From the NCBI GenBank assembly GCA_013152435.1, contig JAADGJ010000077.1, forward strand, positions 23,329 to 78,583: DNA of 55,255 bases, written 5' to 3'. Of this stretch, positions 49,922-55,255 are shown in pieces. Under the pieces are notes generated by a model that saw only the letters and a list, made by a program, of their open reading frames with translations, did no database searches and was not told the DNA's origin. Within the stretch, counting starts at the first letter, position 1. The number at the start of each line of letters is the position of its first letter. This stretch comes from Chloroflexota bacterium (GTDB lineage Bacteria > Chloroflexota > Anaerolineae > DUEN01). Both the position numbers and the translations under genes were made by a program.

Positions 49922-52900
49922 CTACACAATCTCCCTTCCGATGAGGGAGCTACCGGGCATCTCCTCAGGTGCCGCGGTGAGGATATCCTGGTAGATGGAA
50001 GAACGGGAGAGATATCGGGTGCGGGCCCTTTCATCCAGGGAGGCAGCGCGCTGTCGTATGATTGTAGCAGCCTGTACCAGAGCCTCCCGCGCGGCTGCGG
50101 GCTGGTTCAGCCTGTTGAGCGTCTGGGCCAACCACCACCAGGCTTCGGGTTCCGCCTCCCCGCCCGTGGCTTCCTCCGCCTCCCGAAACTGGGTCACCAA
50201 CGCTCGTGCCGCTTCCACGTCTCCTTGCTGTACCTGGACGTACGCGTACAGGGCTAGCGTCATCGTGTGGCCTGGCGCACGAGTGCTCCGATAGTAGTGA
50301 TCCGCTTTTTCCAGTCGCTCGGCCGCTTCGGCCAGGCCGCCGCGGGCCAGCGCGCAGCGGGCCAGCCCTTCCCAAATCTGGGAGCGGAAGACGAAGGCGT
50401 TCAGATCCTCTTCTATTGCCAGGGCGCGACGGTACGCGGCCTCAGCCTCATCGACGTCTCCCTGGGCCAGATGCGTTTCCCCGGCGCAGGTCTGGATATA
50501 GGATTCGAGGCCTTGATCCGAGATGATGTGGGCCAGACGCCGGGCGTCTTCGTAGCACGCCAGCGCGTCCTCGTAGCGCCCCAGGGTGTAATAGAGGACG
50601 CCCTGGCTGGTCAGGCTGTACGCGTCCAGGCCCAGGTCCCCGGTCTGCGGAATGAGATTACGGGCCTCCTCCTGTAGGGCCAGGGCGCGGCCGTAGTTAC
50701 CCAGGCGATGATAGAGCATGGAGAGGTTGTTACAGGCGATGGCCTGATGCCATGCCTCACCGGATTCCCGCCAGTAGGCCAGCGCTGCTTCCATATGCTG
50801 CAGCGCTTCTGGCAGGCGGTTCTGGTCCAGGTCGATGATGCCCAGTGTCCCCAGACAGAGTACCTCCCGTCGCCGATCTCCTATCTGCTGGCTCAGGTGT
50901 AATCCCTCCTCGCAACATACGAGCCCGCTACCAAAGTCACCTGTGCGCACATGACACATGGCCTTGATGCGCAGTGCATCCACGGCTAAGCCTATATCTC
51001 CATGCTTTCGAGCCAGGGAATGGGCGGCCTCCGCGCTGTCTATTCCCTCGCGGAAACGAGCCGTGCGCATGGCCCATTCCGCGCGGCGGAGCAGCACATC
51101 GGCTTGCCGGATGGGATCTGCGAGCGCATGAGCCAGGTTTTCCAATTCGGTTAGGTCCCGGGCCTGCTCCTCGCGTCGGGCCAGTTGGTTGTACGCCCGC
51201 TCCCGACCGCTGAGCGCGCGATATCGCGTCTCCCTGTCATGGGCGGGGATCATCTCCAGGGCGTGGGAGTAGAAGCCCACCGCGGCTTCCTGGGCCTGTC
51301 GGGATTGGGCCGCTTCTCCTGCCTGCAACAGGTAGTGTACGGCTTTCTCCCGGTCCGCGCTCTCTGCGAAATGGTAAGCGAGGGCCTCGATGATCTGGTC
51401 TTCTCGGCCGGCGTATAGATGCGCCAGCGTAGCGCCGATATGAGCATGCAGGTGGCGGCGAATGGGATCCGGGATATGGTGGTACACAACCTGACAGATC
51501 AGGGGGTGAGTGAAATCGTAGCAAGGTTCCTGCTCTGAGGAGATCGGGCGGATCAGCCCACGCAGGAGCCAGGTGCTCAACGCTGCGTCTACCTGCTGGG
51601 CAGGAGTCTGGGCTATGGCGAGAAGAAGCTCACGTGTGAAGGGCTCGCCCAAAACGGCCGCGATATCTAGCAGGTGTCGCGCGTCTGTAGGCAGACGCCC
51701 CACGCGAGTCAGGACCATGTCCTGGACAGCGGATGGTACGGTGCGGGGGGTAACGTGCCGGGCGAGACCGTGCCCGGACGAGGAAAGTTGCTCCTCCCGT
51801 AGCTGGTCTGCATCCACGTCCCAGCCTGTTCCTCTGGCTTGGAGGATGCCTCGTTCCACCAAGTCACGCAGGTGTTCCATGAGGATGAAAGGGTTGCCTT
51901 GGGAGCGGTCGTAGAGATAGGTGAGCAGCGATGGGATCCGTTCTTTGGGGAGGACCAGCCATTCTGCAAGGGCTTGGCGAATGCTTTCCTGGCTGAGAGG
52001 ACTCAGGTGCAGGATTTGCAGGCGTCGTGTTCGCCCTAGGTCGCGGCATAGGAGGTTGAAGGGGTGCCCGGGTTCCACCTCCTCGCCCCGATATGCGGCG
52101 ACGAACCAGATGTTCGCGTCGGCCAAACGATGCAGGAGGTAGCGCAGCATGTCCACGGTGTCGGCGTCGGCCCAGTGCGCATCATCCAGGAAGAAGGCCA
52201 GGCCACCTTGGGCCAGGGCGAGGAAGGCCTGGGCGACGGCTTCAAAGAGACGCTGGCGTGCGGCCGTGTCCTTTTCGATCGGGACAGGCGGCGGCAGGGC
52301 AGACGTGGCGCTTTGCAGTTCGGGAAGCAGACGGGAGAGCTCGACCAACCACACGGGTGCTAAGGATGACCATGCGTCAGGTGCCCGGTGCAGCAGATTA
52401 CGCAGGGCGTCGGCAAAAGGGTGAAAGGAAGCGCTGCTGCTGAACTGATAACAACACCCGCGCAGTGCGGTGACTCCGCGGCCGCGCAGATACTTCAGGA
52501 ACTCTTCCATGAGACGGGTCTTGCCAATTCCCGCCTCTCCTTCCACCAGGGTGAGGGTGCCCTGGCGTTCCTCCCAGCGTGCCATAAGCCAGGCATGTTC
52601 CTCCTCCCGCCCGAAAAAGGGGATAGGGGGGAGAAGGTCTCCAGGGGAACGATCGGGCTGGAAGAGGATGCGGGTGAATTGATGGGGGTCACGAATGCGC
52701 TCATACAGGCGAACGGTCTCTGGCAGGGGATCGACATGGAAGTGCTCCCGCAGCAGATGCAGGCAACGCTCATACTGAGCCAACGCGTCCGCACGACGGC
52801 CTGCCAGTGCATAGCAGAGCATAAGTTGACGGTGAGCCCATTCCGACCAGGGAGCCAGGGTGAGGAGGCGTTGTAGCGTGAGGATGGCATCCCCGTACTC

Positions 52901-53461
52901 GCCACGCGCGATGTGGATCTTGCAAAGTTGGAAGAGAACCTGGATGATGCGCTCGCGGTAGTACGCGCGCTCACCCAGGAGCCACGTTTCGAAGGCAGAA
53001 GCCCCCTCCACGTACACCCCTTCCATGAAGTCCCCGCGATATAGGCGCACACATTCAATGAGATGCTTAATCGCCTCTGGGGAGGCGGAATGCGTCGTAG
53101 AGGAGATAGAGGGTTTGATGGCCTTTATGTGTTTTTCGAAGGTTTCCACGTCCAGGGTGTGAGGTGCCTGATGATTGAAAGCGATATCTTGTCGGGAGAC
53201 GTGGAGGTAGGGACATGATTCGTCGTCTGAACAGAGGGAGCGGCGGATATTCCAGACGGCACGGCGTAGGCTGCGCGCCGCGCGTGCTTGTCCTTGATCG
53301 CCCCAGAGGAGATCGGCCAGCATTTCCCGCTGGTGTGCGCCGGGGCGCATCACCAAGTAGGCTAACAGAGCGAGCGTCTTCGCTGTCTCGAGGTGAATGG
53401 GATGCTTTCCTAACCGGATCTCAGGCCCGCCTAACAAGCGGAGGTGTAGGATGGGTGCCAT
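49922..53461 (-). CDS. SARP-like transcriptional activator with BTAD, ATPase and TPR domains
   Basis: A 1179-residue regulator. Residues 1-100 form a winged-helix DNA-binding domain (LHLRLLGGPEIRLGKHPIHL, ARSLRRAVWNIRRSL). Residues about 105-265 form the bacterial transcriptional activator domain. Residues 281-560 are an STAND-type ATPase with GREEEHAWL, Walker A GEAGIGKTR (Lys at about 314) and Walker B FFLDDAHWADADT at about 420. The rest is a long TPR array (ALEMI, ALAYHFAES, LGRYEDALACYEDARRL, ALQEEARNLIPQTGDLGLDAYSL). This is the large SARP/AfsR plan; such proteins switch on target operons upon ligand or partner binding to the TPR end. No ribosome site is obvious. It faces the operon at 53567, with matching direct repeats between. 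Confidence 0.9.
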   Translation of the reverse strand: MAPILHLRLLGGPEIRLGKHPIHLETAKTLALLAYLVMRPGAHQREMLADLLWGDQGQARAARSLRRAVWNIRRSLCSDDESCPYLHVSRQDIAFNHQAPHTLDVETFEKHIKAIKPSISSTTHSASPEAIKHLIECVRLYRGDFMEGVYVEGASAFETWLLGERAYYRERIIQVLFQLCKIHIARGEYGDAILTLQRLLTLAPWSEWAHRQLMLCYALAGRRADALAQYERCLHLLREHFHVDPLPETVRLYERIRDPHQFTRILFQPDRSPGDLLPPIPFFGREEEHAWLMARWEERQGTLTLVEGEAGIGKTRLMEEFLKYLRGRGVTALRGCCYQFSSSASFHPFADALRNLLHRAPDAWSSLAPVWLVELSRLLPELQSATSALPPPVPIEKDTAARQRLFEAVAQAFLALAQGGLAFFLDDAHWADADTVDMLRYLLHRLADANIWFVAAYRGEEVEPGHPFNLLCRDLGRTRRLQILHLSPLSQESIRQALAEWLVLPKERIPSLLTYLYDRSQGNPFILMEHLRDLVERGILQARGTGWDVDADQLREEQLSSSGHGLARHVTPRTVPSAVQDMVLTRVGRLPTDARHLLDIAAVLGEPFTRELLLAIAQTPAQQVDAALSTWLLRGLIRPISSEQEPCYDFTHPLICQVVYHHIPDPIRRHLHAHIGATLAHLYAGREDQIIEALAYHFAESADREKAVHYLLQAGEAAQSRQAQEAAVGFYSHALEMIPAHDRETRYRALSGRERAYNQLARREEQARDLTELENLAHALADPIRQADVLLRRAEWAMRTARFREGIDSAEAAHSLARKHGDIGLAVDALRIKAMCHVRTGDFGSGLVCCEEGLHLSQQIGDRRREVLCLGTLGIIDLDQNRLPEALQHMEAALAYWRESGEAWHQAIACNNLSMLYHRLGNYGRALALQEEARNLIPQTGDLGLDAYSLTSQGVLYYTLGRYEDALACYEDARRLAHIISDQGLESYIQTCAGETHLAQGDVDEAEAAYRRALAIEEDLNAFVFRSQIWEGLARCALARGGLAEAAERLEKADHYYRSTRAPGHTMTLALYAYVQVQQGDVEAARALVTQFREAEEATGGEAEPEAWWWLAQTLNRLNQPAAAREALVQAATIIRQRAASLDERARTRYLSRSSIYQDILTAAPEEMPGSSLIGREIV

Positions 53462-53526
53462 GGCCGTGTGTCAGGGTTGAAGTTTCCGATTCACGGTCCA
53501 GATCAGAATGAGCGGATCCAGCCTCT

Positions 53527-53559
53527 TTCAACGTTTATTCAACGCTCTTGGGATATGAT
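53527..53559 (+). promoter_or_regulatory. SARP-type direct repeats and -10 box
   Basis: TTCAACG occurs at 53527-53533 and again at 53538-53544, an 11-bp period. Nine bases later comes TATGAT (53554-53559). SARP proteins bind heptamer repeats at 11-bp spacing just upstream of the -10 box. The predicted transcript start is near 53566. A weak third repeat may lie one turn upstream (53516-53522). Confidence 0.6.
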
Positions 53560-53566
53560 GGAGTGA

Positions 53567-53815
53567 GTGATATCCGTCACGCAAGATTATACCCTCATTC
53601 CTTTAATCGCTCAAATGAGCCATCCTCGCATCTATCTTTTGTATGTTTGGACAGAACAGCGGGAGGGGCAAGACAGGCCCTCGCTGTTGAGGATCGCGTT
53701 GGAGGAGCCTCATACGGGAAGGCGATGGGGGTTCAGCAGTGTGGGGGACTTGGTGGAATTCGTGGAAGAGGTTCTGATGAAATGGCAAGAAGGGAGATCG
53801 ACGAACCAGATATGA
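53567..53815 (+). CDS. Small protein resembling short Chloroflexota-type proteins
   Basis: A frame of up to 82 residues ending YLLYVWTEQREGQDRP, then ALEEPHTGRRWGFSSVGDLVEFVEEVLM. It keeps a compact pattern: an RIYLLYVW strand, an R-ALE-P-TG-R-GF motif and a C-terminal helix. I recall similar short proteins from Chloroflexota, but this needs a search. GTG at 53567 is at the predicted transcript start and would be leaderless; ATG at 53615 is the more conventional start. It lies 35 bp before the secreted propeller gene, in the same direction. Function unknown. Confidence 0.55.
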   Translation: MISVTQDYTLIPLIAQMSHPRIYLLYVWTEQREGQDRPSLLRIALEEPHTGRRWGFSSVGDLVEFVEEVLMKWQEGRSTNQI

Positions 53816-53850
53816 GGCCTTGTGCCCAATTGTATCGTAAGGAGGGCTGT

Positions 53851-55255
53851 ATGCGCTGGCGAGATCGTCAAGGTAATCGTCTTTTCCTTCTCTTCGTCGT
53901 TTCTATATTAGCGTGTTTGGGCATAGGATTTTCCCTCGCCGGGCCTGTTTGGGGAGCTCCTGATGCTCCCCGGCCAGCACGTGCGTCACAGTGCGAATGG
54001 GAGACCATGTCGCTTCCATCATTCTATAAAAACATATACTTTTACGATGTCTGGGGTACTGGCCCAGATGACATCTATGTCGTGGGGACAGGGGGAGCCG
54101 TCGCTCATTACGATGGCACATCTTGGTCCTATATGGGAACTGGAGGAAGCAGTAATCTCGCGAGCGTATGGGGATTCGCGAGCAATGATATTTGGGTCGC
54201 TGGTAGCGGTGCTTTGTATCACTATGATGGTTCCTCTTGGTCATACATTGGCTTCTCATACCCAGATGGAAATCCTGCCCCCAGTGCTGTTTGGGGACGG
54301 AGCCCCAATGATGTTTACGTCGTGGGGACCGACTTTCGGCCCTTTGGAGGGGAGGGGACAGATGGTCCGTTTGTCGCCCACTGGGACGGTTCATCTTGGA
54401 CCACAGAAGTGAATCGCTCGACCTTCTCCAATGGCCAACCCCTAAGTGCCGTATGGGGTGATGCGACCTCTGTGTTCGCCGGAGGGGAATCCAATTATAT
54501 GCTGCGTCGCAATGGTTCGTGGGGACCCTTTAGCGCGCCTTCCGTCAATTTTATCCAGAACATCTGGGGGTTATCCACTAATGATTTTTACATCTTACCC
54601 TTCTATGGTGCCGTATATCACTGGAATGGAAGCACATGGGAGGAGGTGACAGAACTCTCCACGTGGGCACGATTGAATGATATGCATGGCACCTCGGCGG
54701 ACAGTATCTTCGTCGTTGGAGAGGGGGGAACGATTTTCCATTGGGATGGTACTCAATGGCGTCAGATGGATAGTTGTACTACAGAGACTCTTGAAGGCGT
54801 ATGGGCCTTTGATACAACGGCTTATGCCGTGGGGCACAATGGAACCGTGTTGAGATATGCGCCTTCCGCCATAACGCCGACCTCCACGCCTACGGGAACT
54901 AGTACACCCACACCCACGCCGACATCCACATCCACATCCACATCCACACCCACGCCCACGCCGACATCCACACCCACACCCACACCCACACCCACACCTA
55001 CACCTACACCTACAAGCGGCGCGGTGATCGTTACCGACACGCCCACGCCGACGTCCACCCCGACGCCAACGCCGACGTTAGCCGCCGTGCGCGAGTATCG
55101 CTTTGAGGGGCGCGTGCTGGATGGTCAGCGTCCCCTCTGGAACGTGCTGGTGGAGCTGATGGGACGGACGACGGAGTCTGAGGCGTGGAAGATGTTGCAG
55201 AGGGTGCGCACGGATCAGCAGGGGCGGTACACCATTGTCTATCAGGAGGTACAGG
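53851..55255 (+). CDS. Secreted beta-propeller protein with a Thr/Pro linker, 3' end outside the window
   Basis: An open frame of 468 codons that reaches the window end. The start ATG has AAGGAGGG at proper distance. A basic N-terminus and hydrophobic stretch (LFLLFVVSILACLGIGFSLAG) form a signal peptide. Seven repeats of about 45 residues follow (53-325), each with a core like VWG-SPNDVYVVG-GG-V-HWDGSSW, indicating a seven-bladed propeller. Then come about 65 residues of Thr/Pro/Ser linker (TPTPT), and the start of a beta domain like carboxypeptidase-regulatory or CNA-B domains (YRFEGRVLDGQRPLWNVLVELMG, DQQGRYTIVY). It is clearly less GC-rich than its neighbours, a sign of possible transfer or relaxed selection. 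Likely surface-exposed and binding; ligand unknown. Confidence 0.85.
   Translation, partial: MRWRDRQGNRLFLLFVVSILACLGIGFSLAGPVWGAPDAPRPARASQCEWETMSLPSFYKNIYFYDVWGTGPDDIYVVGTGGAVAHYDGTSWSYMGTGGSSNLASVWGFASNDIWVAGSGALYHYDGSSWSYIGFSYPDGNPAPSAVWGRSPNDVYVVGTDFRPFGGEGTDGPFVAHWDGSSWTTEVNRSTFSNGQPLSAVWGDATSVFAGGESNYMLRRNGSWGPFSAPSVNFIQNIWGLSTNDFYILPFYGAVYHWNGSTWEEVTELSTWARLNDMHGTSADSIFVVGEGGTIFHWDGTQWRQMDSCTTETLEGVWAFDTTAYAVGHNGTVLRYAPSAITPTSTPTGTSTPTPTPTSTSTSTSTPTPTPTSTPTPTPTPTPTPTPTSGAVIVTDTPTPTSTPTPTPTLAAVREYRFEGRVLDGQRPLWNVLVELMGRTTESEAWKMLQRVRTDQQGRYTIVYQEVQ
54900..55013 (+). repeat. Hexanucleotide tandem repeat (CACCCA/CATCCA) in the linker
   Basis: About 19 units of ACACCC, ACATCC or ACGCCC-type hexamers code for the Thr-Pro/Thr-Ser linker. 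Because the unit is 6 bp, gain or loss of units keeps the frame and changes only the linker length. Confidence 0.85.

Follow-up and report, generated by a model that had tools for sequence, protein, structure and literature searches.

SARPs have been studied as antibiotic regulators of actinomycetes. AfsR of Streptomyces coelicolor is a large SARP with wHTH, BTAD, NTPase and TPR parts, and it acts on a small-protein gene adjoining its own, afsS, through the afs box, in which two direct repeats of the form TT(T/C)ATCG at 11 bp replace a poor -35 element (PMC10936776). SARP target promoters have repeats 11 or 22 bp apart with the 3' repeat 8 bp from the -10 element; AfsR binds its repeats as a side-by-side dimer that overlaps the -35 region and recruits RNA polymerase (PMC10936776). 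ActII-ORF4, DnrI, PimR and other pathway-specific SARPs likewise use two to three heptamers with 4-bp spacers, overlapping the -35 and serving local targets (PMC10972967, PMC5930380). Single features of this design recur in PhoB/PhoP, which have an OmpR-type wHTH and read Pho boxes made of 11-bp direct repeats upstream of the -10, and in EmbR of Mycobacterium tuberculosis (PDB 2fez), which has the wHTH and BTAD fold.

The locus described here lies in the window (the whole stretch of DNA analysed, 55,255 nucleotides) and belongs to a different phylum. It resembles AfsR/afsS in its large SARP-like regulator, its two direct TTCAACG repeats, which are close in sequence to TT(T/C)ATCG, and its adjoining small-protein gene. 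In contrast to afsS, the target gene is divergent from the regulator and forms a putative operon with a secreted propeller, outside antibiotic control; AfsS and the small protein of the window are unrelated as far as profiles show. Whereas the pathway-specific SARPs serve actinomycete antibiotic clusters, the neighbouring genes here encode a small protein and, for the most part, secreted proteins. PhoB and PhoP differ in having receiver domains and one common box, while here the receiver domain is absent and each regulator has its own heptamer; EmbR carries an FHA domain in place of the ATPase/TPR part. No paper describing SARP or BTAD operators from Chloroflexi/Chloroflexota turned up in a search of the literature outside subscription journals. 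The mechanism is already known; new, as far as that search goes, are its occurrence in this lineage, the visible matching of regulator and operator, and the pairing of the regulator with a divergent gene for a small protein of an uncatalogued family.

The regulator and its divergent neighbours

The regulator gene (49922..53461, minus strand, with its ATG at 53461) encodes 1179 aa comprising an OmpR-type wHTH, BTAD, an AAA_16 ATPase and TPR repeats, and is divergent from the small-protein gene. An N-terminal OmpR-type wHTH followed by BTAD is the architecture of the SARP family. Regulators of the SARP-LAL (PimR) type combine a SARP domain with a LAL/guanylate-cyclase-like half that lacks a C-terminal LuxR HTH, and the regulator of the window has a similar outline, with AAA_16 and MalT-like TPR parts and no LuxR HTH found in it. 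The BTAD match is strong (101 bits against a cut-off of 22.1), and the Trans_reg_C match falls under its cut-off (22.7 against 26.2 bits). The wHTH-BTAD part aligns with the structures of AfsR and EmbR, including the recognition helix at about residues 59-75, where an ungapped alignment pairs R66 with R87 of AfsR, R67 with T88, N71 with R92, and R73/R74 with R94/K95. Similarity to AfsR is weak (E about 5e-6), and the score against the AfsR equivalog NF053617 of NCBIfam is 81.9 bits for a cut-off of 1430; judged by its sequence, the regulator is AfsR-like in layout and not an AfsR ortholog. Of the 17 BTAD matches in its own genome about 12 are strong, and several of these genes (on contigs 67, 95 and 135, and at 48.9 kb of contig 61) have no adjoining small gene.

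The small protein (53615..53815, plus strand) is 66 aa long if read from the ATG, and then begins with MSHPRIYLLYVW. Translation from the in-frame GTG at 53567 would lengthen it to 82 aa and make the transcript nearly leaderless, but the ATG at 53615 is the more likely start, because orthologs begin at that position. The protein has no match in Pfam or NCBIfam and no sequence relative in PDB, and a fold search against PDB gave no confident match (best E 0.44). The predicted structure is beta-beta-beta-alpha, with a core pLDDT of about 95 and a pTM of 0.61. It represents an uncatalogued family with conserved W, R, L, E and F positions, whose profile has matches in 196 of the 396 genomes of the class and 7 in the genome of the window. 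Family members are about 60-80 aa long and usually divergent from a SARP gene, sometimes standing alone; at two loci (L164 and L146) no divergent SARP lies upstream of the small gene and a SARP gene is found convergent just downstream, and L164 also has an operator.

Behind the small gene, preceded by an AAGGAGG Shine-Dalgarno sequence (53839-53845, plus strand), a gene for a secreted protein runs from 53851 on the plus strand and is still open at the window end (55255). Its product has a signal-peptide-like N-terminus, a propeller, a linker and the start of a further domain. The beta-propeller is predicted at about 53986-54870 from a single-sequence model, in which the nearest fold is YCF48 (E 9e-14, TM about 0.7). 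A long Thr/Pro-rich linker of the TPTPTP/TSTSTS kind follows at 54871-55090, and the domain after it is cut by the window end; the paralog on contig 82 (L174) has an SdrD_B domain at that place.

The twin heptamer and its conservation

The sequence between the two divergent genes reads ...AGCCTCT TTCAACG TTTA TTCAACG CTCTTGGGA TATGAT GGAGTG... on the plus strand. The upstream heptamer occupies 53527..53533 (about -39 to -33 if the transcription start is near 53566) and the downstream one 53538..53544, 11 bp from the first, start to start, so that the operator TTCAACG-TTTA-TTCAACG spans 53527-53544; nine bp separate it from the -10 element TATGAT at 53554..53559. The initial annotation had described this pair at this spacing and distance from TATGAT, with the regulator gene beginning 65 bp off on the other strand, and both points hold, the latter counted from the start at 53461 to the first repeat. 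At the expected -35 position (about 53531-53536, ACGTTT), direct reading of the sequence reveals no TTGACA-like hexamer, so that the promoter in front of the small gene should need help.

The twin repeat is the sole match in the window even when 2 mismatches are allowed. When all heptamer repeats standing before a -10 in the window were scored mechanically, the operator reached 21.0 and the next best candidate 16.4; a generic repeat finder at default extension missed the heptamers, whose length is below its limits. The exact repeat TTCAACG-TTTA-TTCAACG occurs once in the 4.97-Mb genome. None of the 13 genome matches with two mismatches has a good -10-like hexamer 9 bp on, and a wider regulon of the window's regulator was rejected on this ground.

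Loss of the repeats in relatives had been named beforehand as the result that would count against an operator. Ranking homologs by the N-terminal 259 aa of the regulator, we found TTCAACG-N4-TTCAAC(G/A)-N9-TAnnnT, pointing away from the regulator, in all six closest ones (G124 at 70% identity, G219 at 62%, G198 at 61%, G052 at 58%, G259 at 54% and G210 at 49%), all of which come from other families. Two of the six differ by a single base in the second heptamer, and in one homolog the heptamer occurs three times. The recognition helices of all six read LRRALWN or nearly so. When the window is aligned with five of these homologs, the columns without variation are essentially those of the two heptamers except for one base, a single T in the spacer, and TAnnAT; among the six the spacers and flanks diverge. 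The small protein is kept in four of the six. The exceptions, G198 and G052, both rank among the five nearest; there the small gene is lost or does not appear in the sequence retrieved. In G052 the promoter is followed immediately by a gene for a secreted protein, while in G198 a gene for a propeller-like secreted protein lies about 0.5 kb further downstream.

Recurrence in Anaerolineae and matching of helix and heptamer

For 81 of the 115 distinct small proteins of the class, a BTAD gene lies divergently within 1.4 kb. We called an operator wherever two heptamers, identical in at least 6 of 7 positions and at a given spacing, stood before TAnnnT; the genomes include many MAGs, and the loci were chosen by best profile score, not at random. 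At spacing 11, with the -10 toward the small gene, operators were found in 59 of the 81 SARP/small-gene intergenic regions, against a mean of 1.0 and a maximum of 4 in dinucleotide shuffles of the same regions. The reverse direction gave 8, and other spacings gave 0-8, with the exceptions of 22 (10 regions) and 33 (7 regions), which represent extra copies. Such third and fourth copies match the sites of PimR and DnrI; three heptamers at 11-bp steps are seen at L326, L171, L168 and L045. Starting from the regulators instead, 96 of 155 SARPs have an operator reading away from them, against 1-11 when the spacing is no multiple of 11. Where a small gene is nearby, 73 of 95 SARPs have a called operator, and where there is none, 23 of 60; this leaves about a quarter of the SARP/small-gene pairs and 37 of the 60 others with no call. 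In a set of named GTDB genomes that partly overlaps the first, 39 of 52 small-gene loci carry the operator, including that of the cultured Ornatilinea apprima P3M-1, whose locus L290 reads AGACACG-TTGC-CGGCACG-N9-TATCAT. The promoter of the window, with its 11-bp spacing, has the direct repeats at 11 or 22 bp that characterise SARP targets.

In 100 of the 101 operators called, 9 bp separate the second heptamer from the -10. Streptomyces SARPs have a gap of 8 bp, and the 3' repeat overlaps the -35 region here as it does there. So constant a gap points either to a true 1-bp difference or to a different drawing of the heptamer, as the comparison hinges on the heptamer register and the true transcription start.

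The design, a heptamer repeat plus a -10, is systematic across Anaerolineae in the sequences compared, and it is spelled per regulator. Within the window's own genome, paralogous loci have GTGAACG/GCGAACG (contig 82) and, in a reading by eye, copies of CTGATA (contig 61) and CTGACA (contig 10). Among 68 non-redundant regulators, 59 of the 60 with Arg at residue 66 of the recognition helix have a heptamer ending in G, and 7 of the 8 with Ser/Thr have one ending in A (Fisher p 6.5e-8, for sequences that are not independent). A caller blind to the last base gave a similar picture (G in 62 of 66 with Arg, A in 10 of 12 with Ser/Thr), and three of its four Arg exceptions look like register slips. 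On a tree built without the helix, residue 66 changes 12 times, and 3 independent pairs lie on well-supported branches; base 7 follows residue 66 in 1.7 of these and opposes it in none. For the other helix residues, supported pairs were too few for this comparison. For residue 67 the strongest covariation is with position 3 of the heptamer, a position not picked beforehand; T88 of AfsR contacts the base pair at -36, which falls on position 3 when TT(T/C)ATCG is aligned to TTCAACG. The helix also predicts operator distance beyond the remaining protein, with a modest partial Mantel correlation of 0.21 that was equalled or exceeded in 1 of 2000 permutations. As far as these alignments go, the heptamer tracks the recognition helix of the adjoining regulator, and this covariation indirectly supports binding of the SARP to the repeats.

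The genes behind these promoters often encode putatively exported proteins: by a crude rule, 35 of 58 downstream genes (same strand, at least 120 aa, at paired loci) are signal-peptide-like, against 8 of 33 genes of the window. Their domains include Chlamydia_PMP, DUF11, cadherin-like, SdrD_B, PKD, SBBP propeller and cohesin, and further targets are small membrane proteins, cytochrome-like proteins and cytoplasmic enzymes. The suggestion that SARP control extends to surface proteins in this lineage gains support from this enrichment and from the predicted propeller of the window, but since some targets are membrane, cytochrome-like or cytoplasmic proteins it describes a tendency and not a rule. 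A subgroup of regulators with the helix NNLRQ and heptamers TAAACG/AAATG (L136, L165, L170, L102, L109 and L097) stands before genes for cytochrome-like proteins or for small membrane proteins (MKKL.WWFR...), not for secreted adhesins.

Mechanism, alternative readings and meaning

We consider it highly probable, from sequence and from the analogy with AfsR, that the site is a SARP-type promoter operator at which protomers of the divergent SARP recruit RNA polymerase to the operon of the small protein and the propeller. The initial reading as a SARP-type operator is supported by the 11-bp repeats, the conservation in all six homologs, the class-wide recurrence and the helix covariation; the pairing of an activator with its own adjacent target, which it had also proposed, gains support from the six homologs, from about three quarters of the pairs of the class and from the same covariation. 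With AfsR as the model, we infer binding, activation, a signal and co-transcription. Two protomers of the large SARP would sit side by side on the same DNA face, one per TTCAACG, and would cover about -39 to -22, where the -35 element is missing. The bound SARP would recruit a sigma-70-type holoenzyme to TATGAT, and transcription would then run through the gene of the small protein and on into that of the secreted propeller. Activation is presumably gated by the ATPase/TPR part in response to a signal. Each such regulator of the genome appears to read its own heptamer, and the looser genome matches have no good -10 behind them, so that a wider regulon is not indicated and the arrangement has the look of a local switch of one regulator and one promoter.

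The same geometry might serve another OmpR/PhoB-type response regulator, with the SARP a mere neighbour: Pho boxes also consist of 11-bp repeat units upstream of a -10, and in Streptomyces the sites of AfsR and PhoP overlap. We regard this as very unlikely, since a shared regulator would leave one shared sequence, whereas paralogous loci of one genome differ in heptamer, the heptamers change with the recognition helix of the SARP next to them, and the exact repeat occurs once in the genome of the window in place of the common regulon sequence that defines a Pho box. A chance repeat, or the relic of a duplicated sequence, is the least probable reading and can practically be dismissed. Repeats as short as 7 bp do arise often by chance in genomes, but chance is excluded mainly because the six homologs keep heptamers and -10 despite diverged flanks, and the class-wide excess is confined to spacing 11, with its extra copies at 22 and 33.

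A site flanked by two divergent genes, and only 65 bp away from where the SARP gene begins, would also suit a SARP that binds as a repressor or regulates its own gene and does not activate the small gene. Operators that point toward the SARP gene itself occur a little above background (16 of 155, compared with 3-12 at most other spacings), and some SARPs may be autoregulated. As the main role of the site this is improbable, because the geometry is that of an activator, phased at a constant 9 bp to an outward-reading -10 with the -35 absent, and toward the SARP no -10 is conserved at that distance. We therefore retain activation of the small-protein operon by the divergent SARP as the preferred reading.

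More speculatively, and with rather less than even confidence, Anaerolineae may possess many SARP switches that form one large family and are insulated from one another. Each would be a divergent cassette of regulator, small protein and envelope or secreted protein, in which the small protein would be a dedicated feedback partner of the ATPase/TPR part and recognition rules could be read from the natural pairs. Since regulator and operator adjoin and vary together, these loci form a natural experiment on how SARP recognition helices choose bases, and the set would let targets of uncharacterised SARPs be predicted from sequence. The use of SARP operator geometry by hundreds of paralogous regulators in another phylum would mean that the mechanism is much older or more widely spread than its study in actinomycetes suggests, and its common use in this phylum would be the activation of genes for cell-envelope and secreted proteins.
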